From: a virus
Reading direction: 5' to 3' (one strand)
DNA length: 37,995 nt
IMG/VR virus record: IMGVR_UViG_3300004457_000705
Coordinates: 1 to 37,995 of that record
Below are positions 4,466 through 37,429 of the stretch, piece by piece. The notes below the pieces were generated by a model, which saw only the letters and a list, made by a program, of their open reading frames with translations, did not search any database and was not told where the DNA came from. The translations under genes were made by a program, and so were the position numbers. Position 1 is the stretch's first letter, and each line of letters opens with the position of its first letter.

Positions 4466-5254
4466 TTAGTTTCTAACGTGAATATTGGAAATTGTGCTGT
4501 TAGCATCATCAGGATAACTAATTACCCTGACCCAATTACAATTAACTGCAAAGTGATTATATAGAATATCCGTTGTGCCTGTGATAGCAACATTTGAAAC
4601 TACATCAAACCAGTCACCGTGAGCGTCATCACCTTGTGGTGTAGTTTGCATACAACTTGCTTGTATCTTTATATTACCTGTGTATGTTTTATGGTACACA
4701 GCAACACTGTGTTGGGCATCTTTAAAGTTACGATCCAAATTACCAAAGAACGCACTTGAAACAAATACATTGTTACTAGGTTCTGTCATTGTTGTATTAA
4801 ATTGTGTAGGTATAGGATCAAGCACTGCTTGTTCTGATATTTCGATATCTAATGCAACGTCATTATTTTGATTAGAAAAAATTGGTAGGTCTGTACCTTC
4901 ATTATTAGTACGAGTAATATACATTGTGTACAATCCAGGATTGATATCTTGTAGGTCACCTGGTTGTAAATGTAGTTTAACTAATCCTGCATCACTAGTT
5001 ACTTCTACTCGCTTAGTAAGTAGTCTTGATCGCGACGCTGGATTTACAATGTATGCAACAACCTCATCTGTAAATACAGGCTGTAGTTTTCTATCTCGGT
5101 TTCTAATATTAAAATTAATTGTATTAGTTAAACCTTTATGTGCTATGATTGATTTATTGTTCATTGGTTTGTTATCCACGTATAAGTTGTCGGCGGTAAT
5201 TACGAGATCTATCGAATCATCGTATAAAAATAGTCTGTTATTGGCAGGATTCAT
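4466..5254 (-). CDS. Beta-rich late virion protein (baseplate/fibre-type), 262 aa
   Basis: No enzyme motifs are seen. The first ~120 residues alternate hydrophobic and polar positions and contain NINPGLYTMYI-like strands, resembling the N-terminal immunoglobulin-like fold of phage baseplate upper proteins (BppU type). The C-terminal ~100 residues (GDWFDV, NWVRVISY) look like a jelly-roll or ligand-binding strand set. Similar stand-alone structural proteins occur in marine T4-like phages. A perfect late element lies 25 nt upstream and an AGAAAGG ribosome site precedes the ATG, supporting late expression as a virion component. It lies directly downstream of the divergent plus-strand gene's start region. 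The structural assignment is moderate and the exact role unknown. Confidence 0.75.
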   Translation of the reverse strand: MNPANNRLFLYDDSIDLVITADNLYVDNKPMNNKSIIAHKGLTNTINFNIRNRDRKLQPVFTDEVVAYIVNPASRSRLLTKRVEVTSDAGLVKLHLQPGDLQDINPGLYTMYITRTNNEGTDLPIFSNQNNDVALDIEISEQAVLDPIPTQFNTTMTEPSNNVFVSSAFFGNLDRNFKDAQHSVAVYHKTYTGNIKIQASCMQTTPQGDDAHGDWFDVVSNVAITGTTDILYNHFAVNCNWVRVISYPDDANSTISNIHVRN

Positions 5255-6489: not shown

Positions 6490-8157
6490 TTACTTTCCGT
6501 ACCAGATATTTATTTTACCTGACTTATTTTCAAATGGTGATGTAGACCCACCTTGCACATAGTTTGGTAAGTTAGGAATCTGTGTACCAACGTGATACTG
6601 TATTAGGTCTGTAATGCCGTCGCCGTTAAGATCACCTAAAAAACTTTCTTCTGTGGCAGTAATACAACCAACACTGTTACAAAAATCTTGCTGTGGCAAG
6701 TTTGGCAATTGCCCACGCTGATGCCATACTAATTTACCTTCTTTGTTATTAATATAAATTTGAGGTTCACCTTCTTGTGCCCAGCCACCTGATGACCAAT
6801 AATCCATATAGCCGTCACCGTTTAAATCTAAAGTTTGTTTGTGTACACCGGCGCCGTCAATAAATTTTTCTGGGAATGGGTTATCTTGCATTACAAGTCT
6901 GTCACCTTCCATAGCAAAAAGTACTCTAACTGTACCGCCTTCGAGTTGTGTGTTACAGTCATACTCAGTATTCTCATTGTATTGCTGGCCGTTAGCAAGA
7001 CGTTGTACAGCCGCAAATGCCAACAGCATTGGCTCGCTGTCTGGTGTTGGCCACCAAAGTTCAAAATGGTCCCATGCAAGTCCACCAAAATAATGTTCGC
7101 CGTTTACTGCTACAATTTCGTTACGAGCACACCAAGTTGATACTTGCGGATCTCCCCATTCGAGGCATCCTAATTCATCGCATGTATCGTACATTAATGT
7201 TTCTCTTACAATACCCTGTGTTATGTCGTATATAGCAAATCCTTCTCCACCTGCGCCGATAGCATAGTTAGAAGTTACAGATTTTACTTCGCCAAAAGGT
7301 CTGTGATCGTTAGTATCGAATGTTTGTAAATATGCCCACTCTGACATTTTATATTTGTCATCATCTGCTTCGTACTCAGCACTAACATCACTCCATGATT
7401 GACCTTCATTGCGATATGCTAGAGGTTGATGTGATCGGAAATCGCTATCCCAATAACCAAACAATATATCCCAATTGTAATTCATATTAGGTAAACCTGC
7501 AACGCCTTGTGCCCAAATAGGATCTTCGCCGAGTACTTTTAAATTGTACACATTGTTGTAATCTGCTGTAAACACACCCTGCATCGAATTATGATTACTA
7601 AAGTCTTCTGCACGTTTTCTTTGAAAATCATCTCTTGAAACAATATATGTAATATGAGGCAAACCAATACCACTGTTAGTATCTTCTAACATTGTAAAAA
7701 ATCCTGCAACGCCTCCTTTCTCTCCACCAATTTGTACATGATTTTGACCAAAAACTTCAATGTTGTTTACACTGTATGACCCATACCCGTCACTAACAAG
7801 TGCCATCATAGTGTTTGGAAGTGGATCATCGTGTACAACATTAGGTCCTTGATCGGGGTGATCAATGTGTCCGCACAATACAAACATTATTATGTCTTTG
7901 TAGTTGTCGTTATTAATATCTACTAACATTGTTTGTTGTATTCGAGACAATGTACAAGTGGGTATATCTAACTTGCTTACTGCATTAATGATAGATACAT
8001 CTGGTGAATTATTGTATTCCACATCAAAAGACGGAGTACTCGGAAGTGGTGTAGCTGAAGGTATATACAGAGCTTCAGTATCTGCAGAACTGCCGCCACC
8101 TCCGCCACAGCCTATTAGTAATAGTGTACAAAGTACTGCTGGTATATTCATTTGCAT
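6490..8157 (-). CDS. Exported lipoprotein with FG-GAP/EF-hand-like repeats
   Basis: 555 aa. The N-terminus is a short lipoprotein signal: hydrophobic LCTLLLIGC, with the lipobox Cys at residue 17 followed by a GGGGG linker, predicting lipidation and anchoring in a Gram-negative envelope. The body has calcium-loop-like segments of the FG-GAP/VCBS type: DINNDNYKD (~79), DLNGDGYMDYW (~442) and DLNGDGITDL (~506), consistent with a beta-propeller. Many Cys residues (e.g. TCDELGC, FCNSVGC) suggest disulfides outside the cytoplasm. The gene has its own host-type promoter and an AGGA ribosome site. It is unlike any T4 core gene. Modifying the surface of the infected cell, such as superinfection exclusion, is inference; bacterial origin by transfer is plausible. 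Confidence 0.85.
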   Translation of the reverse strand: MQMNIPAVLCTLLLIGCGGGGGSSADTEALYIPSATPLPSTPSFDVEYNNSPDVSIINAVSKLDIPTCTLSRIQQTMLVDINNDNYKDIIMFVLCGHIDHPDQGPNVVHDDPLPNTMMALVSDGYGSYSVNNIEVFGQNHVQIGGEKGGVAGFFTMLEDTNSGIGLPHITYIVSRDDFQRKRAEDFSNHNSMQGVFTADYNNVYNLKVLGEDPIWAQGVAGLPNMNYNWDILFGYWDSDFRSHQPLAYRNEGQSWSDVSAEYEADDDKYKMSEWAYLQTFDTNDHRPFGEVKSVTSNYAIGAGGEGFAIYDITQGIVRETLMYDTCDELGCLEWGDPQVSTWCARNEIVAVNGEHYFGGLAWDHFELWWPTPDSEPMLLAFAAVQRLANGQQYNENTEYDCNTQLEGGTVRVLFAMEGDRLVMQDNPFPEKFIDGAGVHKQTLDLNGDGYMDYWSSGGWAQEGEPQIYINNKEGKLVWHQRGQLPNLPQQDFCNSVGCITATEESFLGDLNGDGITDLIQYHVGTQIPNLPNYVQGGSTSPFENKSGKINIWYGK

Positions 8158-8191
8158 AATAGTCCTACCTATAATTTAAAATACAGTAGTT

Positions 8192-8219
8192 ATTATAGCA
8201 GAATTTATGTTAAAGTCAA
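8192..8219 (-). promoter_or_regulatory. Sigma70-type early promoter of the lipoprotein operon
   Basis: TTGACT (8214-8219), 16-bp spacer, TATAAT (8192-8197) on the minus strand. The leader is ~30 nt. Its upstream flank is shared with the promoter at 17991-18019 (see the repeat entries). Confidence 0.8.
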
Positions 8220-9646: not shown

Positions 9647-10073
9647 GGGACCTTGCGTATTCTTTTAGTTCGTCTTTTGAGTTTAGTTCTTGTAGTAACG
9701 TAACCTCTTCACTTTTCATGTGAGGGTGTATACTATATAAAAACTCGCTCACTTTATCTTTTTTCTTCTTAGCATTTGGTGGTTTTAAATAAGGGTGAAA
9801 CTGTACCTTACCTACGCCACATGCACTAAGTAATAACCATTGCAGTTCTGGATGTTTACTAACTTCACTGTAGTCTCTATTCACTAGTTCATTAGTCATA
9901 TAAATGTAGTGTGCGGCATCCTTGCCTTGTACACTACTTGCGTAACGCATCATCATCCATGAGCTAAATGCTTTCTTTTGTTCAGGCGTTAACCTATTGT
10001 AATATCCTCTGTCACGTTTGTCAAGTGCGGCCATAATATCCTTTAACGGTATTGCTGGTGCCTTCTTAGCCAT
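9603..10073 (-). CDS. Probable clamp-loader subunit, T4 gp62-like
   Basis: 156 aa from the ATG at 10073, preceded by AAGGA; an upstream in-frame start at 10124 would overlap mtnN heavily and lacks a ribosome site. It is helical and basic. The central region (SWMMMRYAS, YIYMTNELVNRD, HPELQWLLLSACG) has the spacing of the small clamp-loader subunit gp62 in T4-like phages, where a helical stretch is followed by NELN and a short WLL segment. gp62 works with gp44 to load the gp45 clamp; neither partner is in the window. The C-terminal ~50 residues are charged. A member of another conserved replication family cannot be excluded. Confidence 0.55.
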   Translation of the reverse strand: MAKKAPAIPLKDIMAALDKRDRGYYNRLTPEQKKAFSSWMMMRYASSVQGKDAAHYIYMTNELVNRDYSEVSKHPELQWLLLSACGVGKVQFHPYLKPPNAKKKKDKVSEFLYSIHPHMKSEEVTLLQELNSKDELKEYARSHGYDDKTIKDIFGK

Positions 10074-10596
10074 TAGTGTTTTCCTTGTATATCGCCATGT
10101 AGTGTTCTTCGCCTTTAGCAACATTCTCTAACCAAGTAGTGTCTGCAGAATCATCTGCACTGTCGCTTACATACTTATAGCACTTGAAGTTTACCTTCCT
10201 GTTAGAACAGGCTTTAGCAATTGCAAATGCCTCCATGTCAACTACATGGGCAGGATATTCTAAGTCTGGGTCTGTAACAAAGTTATCGCCTGTGCTGCAA
10301 GTATACCCGACTCCTAGTGATATTGTAATAGGATCTTTTGGTAAAAACAATTCAATTGCTTCAGGACATTTACCTTTATCTCGTTCAACAAAGTTTACCA
10401 TTTCATGGCAACCATTAGTTAACTTGATGCCACCTGCCGTACCAAAATTCCAAACAGTTTGTGGGTTATGTTTTTCAATAAGTCTTGCCGCTGTTAATGC
10501 CGCATTAATTTTACCAACACCTGTAAAGAAAACATTATCCCACTTAGCCATAGTAGGCGCTTCACTTTCAAGTGCAATTAATATTAAATCTTTCAT
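10066..10596 (-). CDS. mtnN: MTA/SAH nucleosidase (Pfs/MTAN family)
   Basis: 176 aa, shorter than bacterial MtnN (~230 aa). The key features are kept: an early Glu in IALESEAPTM, the GVGKINAAL loop, NFGTAGGI, the ribose-binding VDMEAFAIA with its Glu, and the catalytic Asp in YVSDSADDS. The family hydrolyses S-adenosylhomocysteine, methylthioadenosine and 5'-deoxyadenosine to adenine plus the sugar. The ATG overlaps the apt stop codon by 4 nt, and apt overlaps metK, so the three make one coupled cassette. The missing ~50 residues lie mainly between the N-terminal Glu and the central sheet. A related nucleoside phosphorylase specificity is possible. Confidence 0.88.
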   Translation of the reverse strand: MKDLILIALESEAPTMAKWDNVFFTGVGKINAALTAARLIEKHNPQTVWNFGTAGGIKLTNGCHEMVNFVERDKGKCPEAIELFLPKDPITISLGVGYTCSTGDNFVTDPDLEYPAHVVDMEAFAIAKACSNRKVNFKCYKYVSDSADDSADTTWLENVAKGEEHYMAIYKENTNG

Positions 10597-11123
10597 TCAT
10601 CTACTTCCAAAACGCTATAGGATTCCACTCCGCAATAGTCCTTTAGTTTAACAGTTCCTCGTAGGAAAGTCAAGTCTATTACACAGGCATAATTTATATC
10701 ATACCCACCTGCTTGTTTAATTAATTCTACCATAGCATTAGCAGTTCCACCTGTGGCACTTACATCATCTACAATACAAATTCTATCAGTGTATGCAAAC
10801 TCAACAGTGTCTAGCATTTCTAGTGTTTCGCTGCCATATTCTAGATCATATGAATATGCTTTTACTTTGCCAGGTAACTTTCCAGGTTTACGAACAATGT
10901 GTAAAGGGATACCTAGTGCTAATGCTACCGGAGCTCCCCATATGAAACCACGTGCATCCGGTGCAACAATTTGTGTTGCTTTAACGCTTCTGCAATATGC
11001 AACCATCTTATCCACAGTGTACTTAAACGCCTTGGGATCTTCAAGTATGCTTGATATATCTTTAAACATGACTCCTTTAATTGGGAAGTCAGGTACAGTA
11101 CGGAGTATTTTAGTTAGGTCCAT
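10593..11123 (-). CDS. apt: Adenine phosphoribosyltransferase
   Basis: 176 aa, normal length for APRT. It has the N-terminal TVPDFPIKGVMFKDIS block, DARGFIWGAPVA, the VRKPGKLPG loop, and the PRPP-binding VDDVSATGGTA (~118-128). It converts adenine and PRPP to AMP and pyrophosphate in the cytoplasm. Its start lies 14 nt inside the end of metK and its stop overlaps mtnN's start (ATGA). The neighbour mtnN makes adenine, so Apt is the natural next step in salvage. APRT is not a T4 core gene; host acquisition is likely. Confidence 0.95.
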   Translation of the reverse strand: MDLTKILRTVPDFPIKGVMFKDISSILEDPKAFKYTVDKMVAYCRSVKATQIVAPDARGFIWGAPVALALGIPLHIVRKPGKLPGKVKAYSYDLEYGSETLEMLDTVEFAYTDRICIVDDVSATGGTANAMVELIKQAGGYDINYACVIDLTFLRGTVKLKDYCGVESYSVLEVDE

Positions 11124-12213
11124 AAAGATCTAGTTGCTCCCATGGTAGATCTGATTTACCAAAGTGTCCATAGTTGGTAGTTTTTGTTAGGTCCATATTA
11201 AATAAATCAAACTTGTTAATTATCCCAATTGGTGTTAAATCAACATGTTGTTTTAGCTCTTCTGCTAAGTCTTCTCTAACTTTGCCGTCTGCATAAACAT
11301 ACACGCTAGTTGGTTCAACTACACCGATAGCATAACTTAGTTGTACAGTACAGTTTTCTGCTTTGCCTGATGCTACAATGTTCTTTGCCAAATAGCGAGC
11401 CATATATGCTGCTGATCTGTCGACTTTAGTGCAGTCTTTACCTGAAAAAGCACCGCCGCCATGTGGAGCGTACCCGCCATAAGTATCAACAATAATTTTT
11501 CGTCCAGTAAGTCCAGTATCTCCATCCGGTCCTCCAATTACAAATCTGCCTGTAGGGTTGATTAAAAACTCTGTGTTTTTTAGATCTACATCGCTTAATT
11601 CTTCTATTATAATTTGTTCAACTCTATCACGCACCATTTGTGTGCTTACATCATCACTGTGTTGAGTACTACATACAATAGTACTAATGCCAACTGGCTT
11701 TCCAACTCCATCGTATTGCATTGTTACTTGACTTTTACTATCAGGTCCAATCCACTCTTCGCCGTTTCGTCTTTCTACCGCTAGTCTTTTTAGAATCTTA
11801 TGACTGTAATAAATTGCACTAGGCATTAAGTCTGGTGTTTCGTTACAAGCATAACCAAACATAAGTCCTTGGTCACCTGCACCAAAGTCATCTGTGCCTA
11901 AAGCAATATCTGCACTTTGACCATGTAGTTTGTTTACCACTGTTAGGTTAGCCCAATGAAATCCTTCTTGCTCGTATCCAATATTCTTAACTACTTGCCT
12001 AACGATTGCATCTATTGTATCGTCATCTATTGGGATATCTCTTTTATATTCACCTGCAACTACAACGCTATTAGTTGTTACTAGCGTTTCTACGGCCGCT
12101 CTGTGATTAATATTACCGTTGATAATAGCATTAGCAATAGTATCTGAAATTAAATCAGAAATTTTATCTGGGTGTCCTTCGCTAACGCTTTCGCTAGTAA
12201 ATTGATAAGACAT
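11110..12213 (-). CDS. metK: S-adenosylmethionine synthetase
   Basis: 367 aa, slightly shorter than the E. coli enzyme (384). Conserved blocks are in order: GHPDK (13-17), the flexible-loop region with GAGDQG (~111-116), GPDGDTGLTGRKI, the GGGAFSGKDCTKVDRSAAY block, and DLPWE near the end. It makes SAM from methionine and ATP. The ribosome site is AGGAG. A 10-bp inverted repeat lies in the 70-nt gap upstream. It is read from the uvsW operon and coupled to apt. All three domains are complete with no sign of decay. The SAM consumer is not evident in this operon; a radical-SAM enzyme is encoded at the far end of the window. Confidence 0.97.
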   Translation of the reverse strand: MSYQFTSESVSEGHPDKISDLISDTIANAIINGNINHRAAVETLVTTNSVVVAGEYKRDIPIDDDTIDAIVRQVVKNIGYEQEGFHWANLTVVNKLHGQSADIALGTDDFGAGDQGLMFGYACNETPDLMPSAIYYSHKILKRLAVERRNGEEWIGPDSKSQVTMQYDGVGKPVGISTIVCSTQHSDDVSTQMVRDRVEQIIIEELSDVDLKNTEFLINPTGRFVIGGPDGDTGLTGRKIIVDTYGGYAPHGGGAFSGKDCTKVDRSAAYMARYLAKNIVASGKAENCTVQLSYAIGVVEPTSVYVYADGKVREDLAEELKQHVDLTPIGIINKFDLFNMDLTKTTNYGHFGKSDLPWEQLDLYGPN

Positions 12214-15034: not shown

Positions 15035-15063
15035 ATTATAGTCTACTTGTATGTTAATGTCAA
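15035..15063 (-). promoter_or_regulatory. Consensus sigma70 promoter of the uvsW-metK-thyX operon
   Basis: Perfect TTGACA (15058-15063), 17-bp spacer, perfect TATAAT (15035-15040) on the minus strand. Five bases separate the -10 box from the uvsW ATG, so +1 falls on or next to the start codon. The -35 box and most of the spacer lie inside the last codons of the TonB-dependent receptor gene. Confidence 0.88.
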
Positions 15064-16620
15064 GAAGAACTTGCGTCCTCCTGCGTCATATCCTGGTAAT
15101 ACTTCAATAACATCATCTAGTACATCCTGTACTGTAAATGCTAATCCAAGTTTATCAGATAGTTGCTTTCTCAATACAAAGTCAATTGATTTAATGTCAT
15201 CCAACGATGCACCATCATACGGTCCAGGGTCTCTGTCAAACTGTGCTGTATAACTTAGTTCAGCAGTTGTTTCACCAAAACTAGCAAAGTAAGAAATTCG
15301 ACCTTTGTACTTAGGTACCCTAGGTTGATCAGTATCTGTATATCCAGCCATCACACTTAAACTACCATATGGTACAGCATACATATCCATGTATCTAATA
15401 CCTCTAGTTTCATATTCGCCTGTGTTAACATACTGTCTAGAACTTCCGTCATAGTCAATGTTTTCTTCAAAATCATATGCAAAGTATGAAAGACCTAAGT
15501 AACCAATTTCAAAACCTAATCCTTCTTCAGGATCTAATCCTAGATTTGGTTGCACCCAGGAGTCGCCATATTGTTGATACAGTGTAGGGTTACGATAACT
15601 TGTACTAATGTTAGCAAAGAAACCTTTATTGTTATCGAATCCGAGTCTATAAACTCTTGTATCTGCACTTACTCGAGTACCAAACTGCAACTGGTTGTTA
15701 TATGTAATAACAGCATAGCCACTAACATCATCCTGTGACTCACCAATGTAGTTCTCTTTATTGTATGTAATACCTGAAACAATAGTTGTTACAGGATTAA
15801 GATTAAAAGTGTCTCTGGCATCAAAGTAATAACGATCTGCATCGCTTGAGTATGTGCTTACATCTTCAGTGAAGTATTCACCTTCAGTCTTGTTATAGCC
15901 AATTGTTATATGATCGTTCCTTACACTAATGTCAGTCTTTGTACCTTCTTGTACACAATCATTTGACTGTGAAAAAGATGCTGTATAACAATTATCATAA
16001 TCGTATTCATAATCTACAAGTGACATTACCACAGTAAATCCTAATACATCTCTTACTGATTTGATAGTAGTATTTTTATAATCATCTTCTTCAGTGTTAT
16101 CGTTACGAACACTTCCGTTACTTACATCAAAACTAGAAATACTAATAGAGTCAAACAATGCTACATTTAGTAACTGATGGTCTTCACCTAATCTTACTAC
16201 TCCTTGATTCTCAATGGCGTCGTTGATAAACACTGTTCCGCCTAGGCTACCAGAGCCATAAAGAACACTGTTAGGTCCAGAAACAATGTTAACTGTTTCT
16301 AATCCGCTTACAACATCATGTGCAAAGTCATACCAACCAGAGCCGGAATCATTTGCAGGCACACCATTCTTATACACAGTAGTATGTGTAGTTTGAGTAC
16401 CTCGTTCATTAAAGCCAGCAAAGCCTCCGTATCCACCAGCAGTGAATGACATAGCCGGCATAACAATTTCAATAATTGCCATATCGTCTGATACATCCGT
16501 GGTGTCTACTTGACTTACTGAACCAACGACTACAATCTCTTCAATGAGATTAGAGTCTTCTGCTAATACTAAGTTACTTGTTGTTCCAAGTAAAAGAAGC
16601 AGTGTTACTAAGTTTTTCAT
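15043..16620 (-). CDS. TonB-dependent outer-membrane receptor, BtuB-like
   Basis: 525 aa from the ATG at 16620, which has a perfect AAAGGAGATATA ribosome site; an upstream in-frame Met is less likely. A signal peptide (LVTLLLLLG to a VLA/E cleavage site, ~20 aa) is followed by a TonB-box-like EEIVVVGS, a plug domain (GGYGGFAGFNERG, GLETVNIVSGPNSVLYGSGS, then LGGTVFIND) and a beta-barrel of ~390 residues. Barrel landmarks are STSYRNPTLYQQYG, NLGLDPEEG..FEIGY, VNTGEYETRGI and a final AGGRKFFLTLTYK. The compact size and landmark order resemble BtuB/siderophore receptors. The protein ends in Lys, not the usual terminal Phe. It is complete with no frameshift. Such receptors are host proteins and frequent phage receptors; none is known to me in the T4 core. 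Substrate unknown. Confidence 0.9.
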   Translation of the reverse strand: MKNLVTLLLLLGTTSNLVLAEDSNLIEEIVVVGSVSQVDTTDVSDDMAIIEIVMPAMSFTAGGYGGFAGFNERGTQTTHTTVYKNGVPANDSGSGWYDFAHDVVSGLETVNIVSGPNSVLYGSGSLGGTVFINDAIENQGVVRLGEDHQLLNVALFDSISISSFDVSNGSVRNDNTEEDDYKNTTIKSVRDVLGFTVVMSLVDYEYDYDNCYTASFSQSNDCVQEGTKTDISVRNDHITIGYNKTEGEYFTEDVSTYSSDADRYYFDARDTFNLNPVTTIVSGITYNKENYIGESQDDVSGYAVITYNNQLQFGTRVSADTRVYRLGFDNNKGFFANISTSYRNPTLYQQYGDSWVQPNLGLDPEEGLGFEIGYLGLSYFAYDFEENIDYDGSSRQYVNTGEYETRGIRYMDMYAVPYGSLSVMAGYTDTDQPRVPKYKGRISYFASFGETTAELSYTAQFDRDPGPYDGASLDDIKSIDFVLRKQLSDKLGLAFTVQDVLDDVIEVLPGYDAGGRKFFLTLTYK

Positions 16621-16645: not shown

Positions 16646-16678
16646 AAAAAGTACACTCCCCAAAATTAGGGAGTGTAC
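16646..16678 (-). terminator. Rho-independent terminator after the AAA+ ATPase gene
   Basis: Perfect 10-bp stem GTACACTCCC / GGGAGTGTAC (16651-16660 and 16669-16678), 8-nt loop, then five T residues on the minus strand (16650-16646). It lies between the AAA+ gene and the receptor gene, so the receptor depends on readthrough or on a promoter I cannot see. Confidence 0.88.
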
Positions 16679-16712
16679 CAGGGTGAAGCGCCTAGGCTAC
16701 TGTGGGAGTATT

Positions 16713-25955: not shown

Positions 25956-26456
25956 CTATTTATCTTTTTTATTAGATTTATCTTCGCCCTTCATAATCCT
26001 TAATAGTTCGTTACGATCATATACTGCTGTAGGGCCAGTGTCGTCATAGCCATCATTTTGATTTTTTGTTTTATCTAGTCTTGCTTTTTTCATCATCAAG
26101 TCTAATTGTTGAAGTTTTGCTTTTGTTTTTGTATCTTTTGCTTCCAGTGCAATCTTTAACATGTTACTAGCTTCTGCAAATATTTTACCTGCAGCCATGT
26201 CACTAACATTCATACCCAAGCTCATTAGTTGTGCATAACTGTCTAGTGCTTTAGATGATATATCATCCATTTCAGTTTCATGGTCGCCTAATCCTTTAAT
26301 TTCTTTAAATGCATCATTGATCTTTTCTGCGATGGTTAAACCGTTATTTACTATCTGTATCTCTTGTTTTGTTTCTGCTATAGTAGGTACTTTTTCCTCT
26401 TCTAATGCTTCTTCCATAGATGGGAGATTAAATTCTTCTTCTAGTTTCTTTGTCAT
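25956..26456 (-). CDS. 16: Terminase small subunit, T4 gp16-like
   Basis: 166 aa, same size as T4 gp16 (164). The N-terminal third is acidic. The central helical region has LDSYAQLMSLGMNVSDMAAG, then KIFAEASNMLKIALEAKDTK, matching the oligomerising coiled-coil core of gp16. The C-terminus is basic (KKARLDKTKNQ, ending KKDK). It forms a ring that recognises DNA and stimulates gp17. It is coupled to the upstream desaturase gene by ATGA. Confidence 0.88.
   Translation of the reverse strand: MTKKLEEEFNLPSMEEALEEEKVPTIAETKQEIQIVNNGLTIAEKINDAFKEIKGLGDHETEMDDISSKALDSYAQLMSLGMNVSDMAAGKIFAEASNMLKIALEAKDTKTKAKLQQLDLMMKKARLDKTKNQNDGYDDTGPTAVYDRNELLRIMKGEDKSNKKDK
25957..25964 (-). promoter_or_regulatory. 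Late promoter element before the 231-aa gene
   Basis: GATAAATA, five bases, predicted +1 A at 25951; leader ~27 nt. It overlaps the gp16 stop codon. Confidence 0.75.
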
Positions 26457-27175
26457 TGTTTAAATCCTAGTTTGATCAACTGTATTGTTCTGCCGCCTAT
26501 GTCTAGAGGATGAAACAATGTTTCTCGTTGTGTTTCGTGATGTAATGTGTGAAAACCTTCTCCAAAAGTAAGAAGTCCTACAATTAAATCATTGTGTGCT
26601 TCGCCGTTTCTGTGTGAGTAAGAAAACACAGAACTACCTATTAGTTTAGCAAATCCGGCTGGTGCTAACCAAGCATATATTAGTGCAAATGGATCTATTA
26701 ATGATAGTACTAGTGCATATACTGCTATAAACTCCCAATAGTACTTAACCTGTGCCCTATATAAGTTATCCCTTAATAAGTTACCTGCCCATTTAACATT
26801 TGGTTCTGTAAACACTTGTAAAAAGTGTGCGTAAAAGTATCCTTTAAATAAAGGACTATGTGGATCTTTTTCTGTATCAGTAAACTTATGATGTGCTCTA
26901 TGAGTTGCTACCCAGAGTATTGCAGGGCCTACCATCATTATGTGTGCAAAGAATAACATTACTAGTTCAAACCATTTAGGACATTTAAACATCTTGTGAC
27001 TTAAATATCTATGATAACCTAATGTTAATCCAAACAACATTATACAGGAATACATTGTTGCACCAATAGCCCATTGTGTTGCTGTTGCGTACATAAACAT
27101 AGGCACAATGGCAAGCATACTGGCTACTTGTCCAGCGAAAAGACTATATTGCATTCCTGCTTTACCTAATTGCAT
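26453..27175 (-). CDS. Fatty-acid (acyl-lipid/acyl-CoA) desaturase
   Basis: 240 aa integral membrane protein with all three His boxes of the delta-9 desaturase family: HRYLSH (55-60), HRAHH (92-96) and HTLHH (209-213), plus the extra SHRNGEAHND His pair near 188-194. About four membrane helices surround them (e.g. VPMFMYATATQWAIG, LVMLFFAHIMMVG). It introduces a double bond in acyl chains using O2 and a di-iron centre. No linked electron-transfer domain is present, so host ferredoxin or similar is needed. It sits between gp16 and gp4, under a late element five bases from the ATG. Late expression suggests membrane remodelling towards lysis or assembly; this is inference. Clearly an auxiliary metabolic gene. 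Confidence 0.92.
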   Translation of the reverse strand: MQLGKAGMQYSLFAGQVASMLAIVPMFMYATATQWAIGATMYSCIMLFGLTLGYHRYLSHKMFKCPKWFELVMLFFAHIMMVGPAILWVATHRAHHKFTDTEKDPHSPLFKGYFYAHFLQVFTEPNVKWAGNLLRDNLYRAQVKYYWEFIAVYALVLSLIDPFALIYAWLAPAGFAKLIGSSVFSYSHRNGEAHNDLIVGLLTFGEGFHTLHHETQRETLFHPLDIGGRTIQLIKLGFKQ

Positions 27176-35560: not shown

Positions 35561-37429
35561 CTACTTATGATTGAGTGGTATAAATAGGTTCGTTTGCCAG
35601 TTTCGACGGCGGCCAAAGAATAGCCAATCCATATGTTCGTCTGCTGTTTTTGGGAAATCATTGTAGCGATCTTTAACTGTTACCGCTAAACAGTCAAGTA
35701 TGTTTGATTCTAATTCAATGTGTTTAGGTTCATGCATGTAGTGGCCAAATTGTTTAGGCATAACGTTTGCTAACTTATCATAATCTCGTAATACTTCAGA
35801 TGGTACTGTAGCATACAGCTCAGCAAATTGTAGAACTAGATCAACCATAGTAGGTATATAGTTGTTTGACTGCACAATAGGCATAAAACTGTTAATACCT
35901 TTCCATCCACCTTTAATAGTGTAGCCGCCAATTGTGTACAAATTGTATCCTGTTTCTTTCCACAGCATGTATGCTTCTTTATGTTGTTCAAACCATGTGT
36001 TAACAACTGGATCTGATTGTACAAATCTCATTAGGTCAGAATAAAACCTGCTGTATTTTATATCATAGTACCTGTATAAGTAGTCTGCAATGAGTGTGCT
36101 TATCCCGTAACTGTGCATTCCTACTACAAACCAAGAATACTTACTTAGGTCGTACATTTCTTTTTCTGTTAATGTGCTAGAACTACTAATGATGTTAATT
36201 GATTCTGCTGTTCCGTTGTTTATCTCTTGCTGTACATCGCTAGTAGTTTCATAAAAATAGTCATATGCTCTAAATGTTTCTATTCCATATGTTTCTTTGT
36301 CTTCTACATTCATAGGAGCATTTTCGATCAATTGCAAATAAAAGATATCCATATTGATAACATTGTTTTCAAACATTGTGTCAATAACAGCCATCCATGA
36401 ATTGTATGTTTCGCCTGGCATGCCCATAATGAGTTCTGTCATAATTGGCAAATTATATTCTTTTGCTTTTTGTGTAACTAATGCAACACTGTTAATCTTC
36501 ATGTTATCACGTTTAACATTTTTTAATACTTCAGGTGTTGTTGATTGGAAACTTGCTGCTGGTGCGTTTTGAATATTAGCATCTAATAACTTTCTACCAA
36601 TCTGATAAACTGCATCTATATTGTTTTTTGCGTAACTAGCACTAAGAACTGTTGGGTTGCCTGTTCTTTTATTTGCTTCTATCATGAAGTCTGCTATTTC
36701 TAAATCTCGTTTGAACGCACCAAAGTTACTTGCAGTAAAACTAAAATAATGCATCTTGTTATCAGCACACCAATTAATCTCATCATGTATTCGTTGCATA
36801 TGAAACTTATGCATTTTACTTGCTGTTGCACTACCCCAGTCACAGTAAGTACACTTGAATGGACAACCTCTGTCCGTTTCTATTGTAGGCACCCATTCTA
36901 TATCAGGGTTTGCTTCTATTAAACTATCAAATACTCCTGTTAAATACGGACTCGGTAAGTTGTCTAGTTCTTTTATTCTTTCGAACTGTAATGTTTTAGG
37001 CAAGTCCTCGTCTGCAATAATATTTCGCATAACTGCAAGTGCCGCTTGTTCCCCTTCGTTAATTGCTATAGAGTCTATGTATGGATGATCGTTAAAAAAG
37101 TTTTTATCTCGCCATGGTATTTCAGGGCCGCCGGCTACAATGATAATATCTGGATTAAGTTTTTTGAGAGTTTTTAATAATTTGTAGCAGTAATTAATAT
37201 TCCACATATACATACTGCAAAACACTACGTCACATTCAATGAGTTGCTCAACTGCATCACCTATTAACGGTCTTTGAAATATCCAACTGTGTATTTTAAA
37301 GTTATCTTGTATATCCTTATATTGATATACATAACTCCATAGACAGCCTAACGTATAAGGCAAGTACCAACTGTTTAAATGTTTTGGACCTGTCAGAAAA
37401 TTTGGCTGTACTAATCCTACGGTTTTCAT
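35561..37429 (-). CDS. Radical SAM enzyme with N-terminal B12-binding-type domain
   Basis: 622 aa. The N-terminal ~165 residues have a Rossmann-like layout as in B12-binding radical SAM enzymes (VGLVQPNFL, DVVFCSMYMWN, IIIVAGGPEIPW, IAINEGE). The iron-sulfur motif CPFKCTYC is near 189-196 in TDRGCPFKCTYCDWGSA. The radical-SAM barrel continues through ELIMGMPGET (~337-346). The C-terminal ~200 residues are helical. No DxHxxG cobalamin-ligand motif is evident, so B12 binding is unproven. It needs SAM and releases methionine plus 5'-deoxyadenosine. It is coupled by ATGA to a sugar epimerase, suggesting glycan or nucleotide-sugar modification; the reaction is unknown. Confidence 0.88.
   Translation of the reverse strand: MKTVGLVQPNFLTGPKHLNSWYLPYTLGCLWSYVYQYKDIQDNFKIHSWIFQRPLIGDAVEQLIECDVVFCSMYMWNINYCYKLLKTLKKLNPDIIIVAGGPEIPWRDKNFFNDHPYIDSIAINEGEQAALAVMRNIIADEDLPKTLQFERIKELDNLPSPYLTGVFDSLIEANPDIEWVPTIETDRGCPFKCTYCDWGSATASKMHKFHMQRIHDEINWCADNKMHYFSFTASNFGAFKRDLEIADFMIEANKRTGNPTVLSASYAKNNIDAVYQIGRKLLDANIQNAPAASFQSTTPEVLKNVKRDNMKINSVALVTQKAKEYNLPIMTELIMGMPGETYNSWMAVIDTMFENNVINMDIFYLQLIENAPMNVEDKETYGIETFRAYDYFYETTSDVQQEINNGTAESINIISSSSTLTEKEMYDLSKYSWFVVGMHSYGISTLIADYLYRYYDIKYSRFYSDLMRFVQSDPVVNTWFEQHKEAYMLWKETGYNLYTIGGYTIKGGWKGINSFMPIVQSNNYIPTMVDLVLQFAELYATVPSEVLRDYDKLANVMPKQFGHYMHEPKHIELESNILDCLAVTVKDRYNDFPKTADEHMDWLFFGRRRNWQTNLFIPLNHK

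Follow-up and report, generated by a model that had tools for sequence, protein, structure and literature searches.

A gene in a marine relative of the Arenbergviridae jumbo phages very probably encodes an outer-envelope FG-GAP propeller lipoprotein, carried on an accessory cassette that comprises the gene and its own promoter. The gene lies on the minus strand of the window, by which we mean the whole stretch of DNA analysed, a 37,995-base virus record from IMG/VR. Envelope proteins that a phage makes early decide which phages enter the cell and what the dying cell takes up, and known examples of large size are few; the present family of large, putative propeller lipoproteins is seen in uncultured jumbo phages, where promoter and gene form a mobile unit. 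What is new is the combination, in this lineage, of three known kinds of element, the moron, the FG-GAP lipoprotein and the phage exclusion lipoprotein, and a search of the open-licence literature found no phage-encoded FG-GAP lipoproteins. The features on which the argument rests are as follows.

6490..8157, minus strand: lipoprotein gene, 555 aa (ORF; relatives in IMG/VR; dN/dS; Pfam FG-GAP_3/FG-GAP)
6607..6633, minus strand: calcium-type loop 3, DLNGDGITD, residues 509-517 (Pfam FG-GAP at 507-519; nearly invariant in the relatives' alignment)
6802..6828, minus strand: calcium-type loop 2, DLNGDGYMD, residues 444-452 (Pfam FG-GAP_3 starts at 444; nearly invariant in the relatives' alignment)
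7894..7920, minus strand: calcium-type loop 1, DINNDNYKD, residues 80-88, flanked by the invariant C68 and C95 (alignment)
8032..8106, minus strand: Gly5 and Ser/Thr/Pro-rich linker, approximately residues 18-42, some 25 residues (alignment; low-confidence and unstructured in models)
8107..8157, minus strand: predicted signal peptide and lipobox, residues 1-17, MQMNIPAVLCTLLLIG followed by the Cys (pattern match; Cys invariant in 20/20 aligned relatives)
8163..8170, minus strand: Shine-Dalgarno sequence of the lipoprotein gene, AGGTAGGA (sequence; kept in close relatives)
8192..8219, minus strand: sigma70-type promoter, TTGACT-16-TATAAT, with TG before the -10 (sequence; 11/11 close and 9/9 further loci)
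15043..16620, minus strand: BtuB-like TonB-dependent receptor (TBDR), 525 aa from the ATG at 16620, with a TonB-box-like EEIVVVG (profile and Pfam searches; alignment)

A predicted lipoprotein with a probable FG-GAP propeller

The ORF starts with an ATG at 8157, and its first residues bear out the lipobox and poly-Gly tether described in the initial annotation: the lipobox LIGC completes a PROSITE PS51257-type pattern at Cys17 (the pattern allows the Cys 15-35 residues from the start) and is followed immediately by GGGGG. All 20 aligned relatives match the pattern, whereas in the window it occurs in only 3 of the 83 open stretches of at least 80 aa, the other two, a stretch beginning within the desaturase gene and a plus-strand frame at 820, being implausible as lipoproteins. 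Contrary to the auxiliary PROSITE rule, the N-terminus of the window protein (MQMNIPA) has no Lys or Arg among residues 1-7; at least one is present in 13 of the 20 aligned sequences, a count in which some rows start elsewhere than at the true start.

The several calcium-type loops and many cysteines noted at the outset also hold. Shuffling the protein's residues 20,000 times never yielded even two loops of the D-x-N-x-D type, compared with the three observed. There are ten cysteines: none of the 20 aligned relatives lacks the lipobox Cys, C68 or C95, and C401 and C498 are kept by all 11 sequences that have a residue at those positions. Pfam recognises FG-GAP_3 (PF13517; 2.8e-9, 37.9 bits against a cut-off of 26.9) and FG-GAP (PF01839; 2e-6, 28 bits against a cut-off of 22.1). 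The domain that follows the linker is mostly beta, and a moderately confident AlphaFold2 model built from 20 sequences is all-beta (pLDDT 74.5, pTM 0.77); the deeper alignment improved on an earlier model from a shallower one (pLDDT 64), which had given scattered propeller matches. When the model is used for a fold search, the top solved structure is an integrin-alpha propeller (E 3.5e-5, at a modest TM of ~0.4), further integrin-alpha propellers are among the top ranks, and a profile of the distant subfamily matches integrin alpha-4 by sequence (E 1.4e-4). The Pfam, profile and fold matches together indicate that the protein is probably an FG-GAP beta-propeller of the integrin-alpha type, which agrees with the propeller shape first proposed; the secreted, lipid-anchored protein of that proposal stands as a prediction from the lipobox and FG-GAP features.

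The likeness to integrin-alpha and bacterial FG-GAP proteins (VCBS-like; PF13517, PF01839) consists in the repeated D-x-N/D-x-D-G loops and the predicted propeller. The window protein differs from these in being phage-encoded and predicted to be lipid-anchored, in having only about 3-4 recognisable loops, and in that no close cellular relative was found. PHROGs holds no family for it, no enzyme family was matched in Pfam or NCBIfam, and no catalytic residues were identified. A PDB sequence match to the methyltransferase 1y8c (E 0.00095) was set aside as chance, the covered stretch being unrelated to the fold of that enzyme.

A phage-lineage family under purifying selection

Relatives of the lipoprotein were found in 27 other IMG/VR contigs, all of them fragments, with identities down to ~23%. 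Close relatives (46-99% identity) are present in 14 contigs, and a profile scan added one; eight distant relatives (~23-25% identity, E 1e-23 to 1e-28 in a profile search) came from loci fetched via the TonB-dependent receptor, and two further scans added four contigs. In nearly all of nine pairs dN/dS is 0.10-0.20 (the lowest value is 0.07), about twice that of most neighbouring genes, and gene-wide positive selection was not seen in these pairs, dN/dS being a blunt test. The purifying selection, the 27 further contigs and the invariant lipobox Cys mark the ORF as a real conserved gene.

At the sensitivity used, no relative was detected in GenBank phages (tblastn), in plasmids or among 84,980 prokaryote species; the cellular search relied on short conserved patterns only, and distant FG-GAP proteins would escape all of these scans. 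A recent host origin of the gene was considered and rejected on the same grounds, genome contigs, plasmids and GenBank phages yielding no relative, and consequently no donor can be named. On this distribution the lipoprotein is no isolated case but belongs to a family of the phage lineage.

The gene and its promoter as an accessory cassette

Judged by protein identity to the Arenbergviridae jumbo phages of Pseudomonas (tail sheath 41%, terminase 58.6%, UvsW 54.5%), the window derives from a marine relative of this family, to which the Pseudomonas phages Paride and PA5oct belong. With Arenbergviridae (Wroclawvirus; Paride, PA5oct) it shares the backbone ssb-UvsX-UvsW-...-pol-primase-DnaB, but the corresponding stretch in Paride is without TBDR, metK, thyX and lipoprotein gene. 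The gene order of the clade is ssb-UvsX-UvsY-AAA-TBDR-UvsW-...-thyX-[lipoprotein]-mazG-pol-...-primase-DnaB, so that the lipoprotein slot lies between thyX and mazG/pol.

Occupancy of this slot varies. In one relative (L045) the lipoprotein gene is absent and thyX abuts mazG with no promoter in between; four more loci (L046, L113, L116 and L117) are likewise without the gene, as is the cultured relative Paride despite its same backbone order, and in one contig (G029) a C-terminal remnant of the gene remains. These gene-less slots, together with the remnant and Paride, suggest that promoter and gene come and go together in the manner of a moron. The pattern thus supports the view that the two form one insertable cassette, as would fit a host-modifying accessory gene. 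The resemblance to the morons of lambdoid and other phages extends to an autonomous promoter-plus-gene unit in a conserved backbone, its absence from relatives and a product aimed at the host; the difference is that the cassette sits in an apparently lytic jumbo phage and not in a prophage. Two loci carry an opposite-strand gene that separates thyX from the lipoprotein slot (L114, 17406-18101, minus strand; L063, 17568-18284, minus strand).

The dedicated promoter claimed initially is confirmed as a sequence feature, and its class (TTGACW-16/17-TATAAT) is present in all 20 loci examined despite divergence of both spacers and proteins, though it is not unique within the window. It was found in 11 of 11 close loci, where the spacers have diverged and which include two (L007 and L015) whose sequence just upstream differs, and in 9 of 9 further loci, with 10-12 of 12 matches; in three loci (L062, L064 and L094) it lies ~300 nt upstream of the lipoprotein, with a small intervening gene between. 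With a spacer of 17 bases and no more than one mismatch, the pattern recurs at nine sites in the window, all on the coding strand, compared with 1.3 expected; this points to a promoter class that is general to the phage and concentrated in the replication half. From this promoter class we infer early expression of the lipoprotein. No terminator-like site is listed directly downstream of the gene. Another locus (L054) has, immediately ahead of the lipoprotein gene, one (15446-15919, plus strand) whose small product has an N-terminus resembling a signal peptide and no Pfam match.

A BtuB-like receptor with a separate allelic history

The second envelope protein recognised in the initial annotation is indeed encoded nearby and is BtuB-like. 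BtuB is the best solved relative of the TBDR (E 7.7e-15; the next is PhuR at 3e-5), NCBIfam TonB-B12 is its top model, with a score below the equivalog cut-off, hhalign against E. coli BtuB gives a probability of 97.9, and the TonB-box-like EEIVVVG is conserved. Relatives of the receptor are present in at least 173 IMG/VR contigs, far more than carry the lipoprotein, and its position is fixed between the AAA ATPase gene and uvsW; tblastn found no relative in GenBank phages. A single literature report of a phage-encoded TBDR was found, in pelagiphage Skadi (PMC10504331). Every lipoprotein contig that covers the TBDR position has the receptor, which lies on the strand of the lipoprotein and 4.6-7.7 kb upstream of it in the loci measured. 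This co-occurrence is partly trivial, since the TBDR is near-universal in the clade, and the five loci that are without a lipoprotein gene all carry it.

A functional link between the two proteins fares less well in the light of allele comparisons. Between contigs G009 and G008 the lipoproteins are 96% identical (dS 0.12) and the TBDRs 59% identical (dS 2.46), with dS 0.23 for UvsW; between the window and G009 the situation is reversed, with dS 1.34 for the lipoprotein, 0.09 for the TBDR and 0.07 for the AAA gene. The former pair indicates that whole TBDR genes are swapped, dS reaching 2.46 where the genes on either side differ by a dS of ~0.2-0.3. The latter indicates that lipoprotein alleles too are swapped between phages with far more similar neighbours, as would befit an accessory trait subject to local competition. 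On these substitution rates the two sets of alleles assort, through recombination, independently of one another, so TBDR and lipoprotein need not act together. The uncoupled alleles and the TBDR-only genomes argue against a tightly co-adapted pair of the BtuB-BtuG type.

The start of the TBDR is separated from the AAA gene by a strong terminator-like hairpin at 16650-16679 (minus strand), which no consensus promoter follows, and hairpins of differing sequence occupy the same place upstream of the TBDR in many relatives. This suggests control of the receptor by read-through or attenuation.

Possible roles of the lipoprotein

The role that we put first, tentatively and at somewhat less than an even chance, is superinfection exclusion through early modification of the host envelope. 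A moron-like cassette of one gene with its own sigma70 promoter, resident in marine Arenbergviridae-like jumbo phages, would be read by host RNA polymerase early in infection. The product would then be exported, processed by Lgt, LspA and Lnt and lipidated at Cys17, as established lipoprotein biology suggests, and Lol would be expected to sort it to the outer membrane because the residue at +2 is Gly and not Asp. There the long Pro-rich tether would hold the FG-GAP propeller, which could bind, and so mask or jam, a host envelope structure that serves as a phage receptor, thereby hypothetically blocking adsorption or DNA entry of further phages; the protein may also stop progeny from sticking to debris. 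As proteobacterial outer-membrane lipoproteins face the periplasm by default, display on the surface is not assured.

Known exclusion lipoproteins, Llp of T5 and Cor of T1-like phages, are small, and Llp works from the periplasmic side. The window protein resembles them as a phage-encoded, presumably early outer-membrane lipoprotein whose target could be an envelope protein, for instance a TBDR; it differs in size, its 555 aa being about seven times the length of Llp, and in its FG-GAP domain. The precedent is Llp, which acts by jamming FhuA, a TonB-dependent transporter; early synthesis is common among exclusion proteins (PMC9586334). If exclusion is the correct reading, it would extend exclusion of the Llp type to large multi-blade proteins.

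The presence of a BtuB-like receptor on the same strand in every contig covering its position raises another possibility, that the lipoprotein sits on the TBDR and passes it a ligand (cobalamin or another cofactor) that feeds the infected cell. The model here is BtuG of Bacteroides, a seven-bladed propeller lipoprotein that forms a lid on BtuB (PMC10404256), and the analogy is a double one, a propeller lipoprotein and a BtuB-like TBDR being encoded by one genome. The TonB box-like motif and the BtuB and TonB-B12 matches of the receptor fit this account, as do metK, a nucleosidase gene and a radical SAM gene with a B12-binding domain in the window. We nevertheless consider it rather unlikely. 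The alleles are uncoupled in opposite directions in the two comparisons, many contigs combine a TBDR with an empty lipoprotein slot, the two genes are neither adjacent nor under a common promoter, the searches run detected no homology to BtuG, which is absent from the best fold and sequence matches of the lipoprotein, and the co-occurrence loses weight for the reason given above. The allele test and the TBDR-only genomes accordingly displaced an obligate BtuG-like lid as the preferred explanation. Supply of B12 to a class II ribonucleotide reductase was also rejected, for the reductase adjoins an NrdB-like ORF and so looks class I and not B12-dependent; no Rfam match, to a cobalamin riboswitch or any other known RNA, was found in the window. 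A combined arrangement, in which the TBDR is gated by an exchangeable propeller lipoprotein and the pair both scavenges cofactors and excludes competing phages, appears quite improbable.

FG-GAP-like propellers occur in adhesins and polysaccharide lyases, and the window protein could instead bind or cleave surface polysaccharide, with effects on phage release, aggregation or access to receptors. Its modest fold matches include PL11 lyases and galactose oxidase, but these are generic to propellers, and the Pfam and NCBIfam results above, with no catalytic residues identified, make an enzyme or adhesin unlikely. BamB, a beta-propeller lipoprotein of the outer membrane that aids folding of outer-membrane proteins, offers a further analogy: a phage that encodes both an outer-membrane protein and a propeller lipoprotein, by default oriented towards the periplasm, might employ the latter in assembly or quality control of its TBDR or under infection stress. 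Such a role is very improbable, given that BamB has PQQ-like repeats and not FG-GAP, that neither sequence nor fold searches returned BamB, and that the TBDR is found without the lipoprotein. That the propeller is part of the virion, as a decoration or a tail-associated receptor-binding protein, we regard as very unlikely; propellers are present in some viral proteins and a PHROG virion-structural gene (4466-5254) lies ~1.2 kb downstream, yet the conserved lipobox and signal peptide, the placement among replication and nucleotide-metabolism genes and the absence from Paride despite the same backbone order all speak against it.

Other genes of the window

Three genes lie in a row at 10066-12213 (minus strand), namely metK, a gene for adenine phosphoribosyltransferase and one for an MTA/SAH-type nucleosidase; relatives have either the whole block or none of it, and the three possibly constitute a phage-encoded SAM recycling module. 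The radical SAM protein with the B12-binding domain is encoded at 35561-37429 (minus strand), and a fatty acid desaturase gene is found at 26453-27175 (minus strand) amid structural genes.
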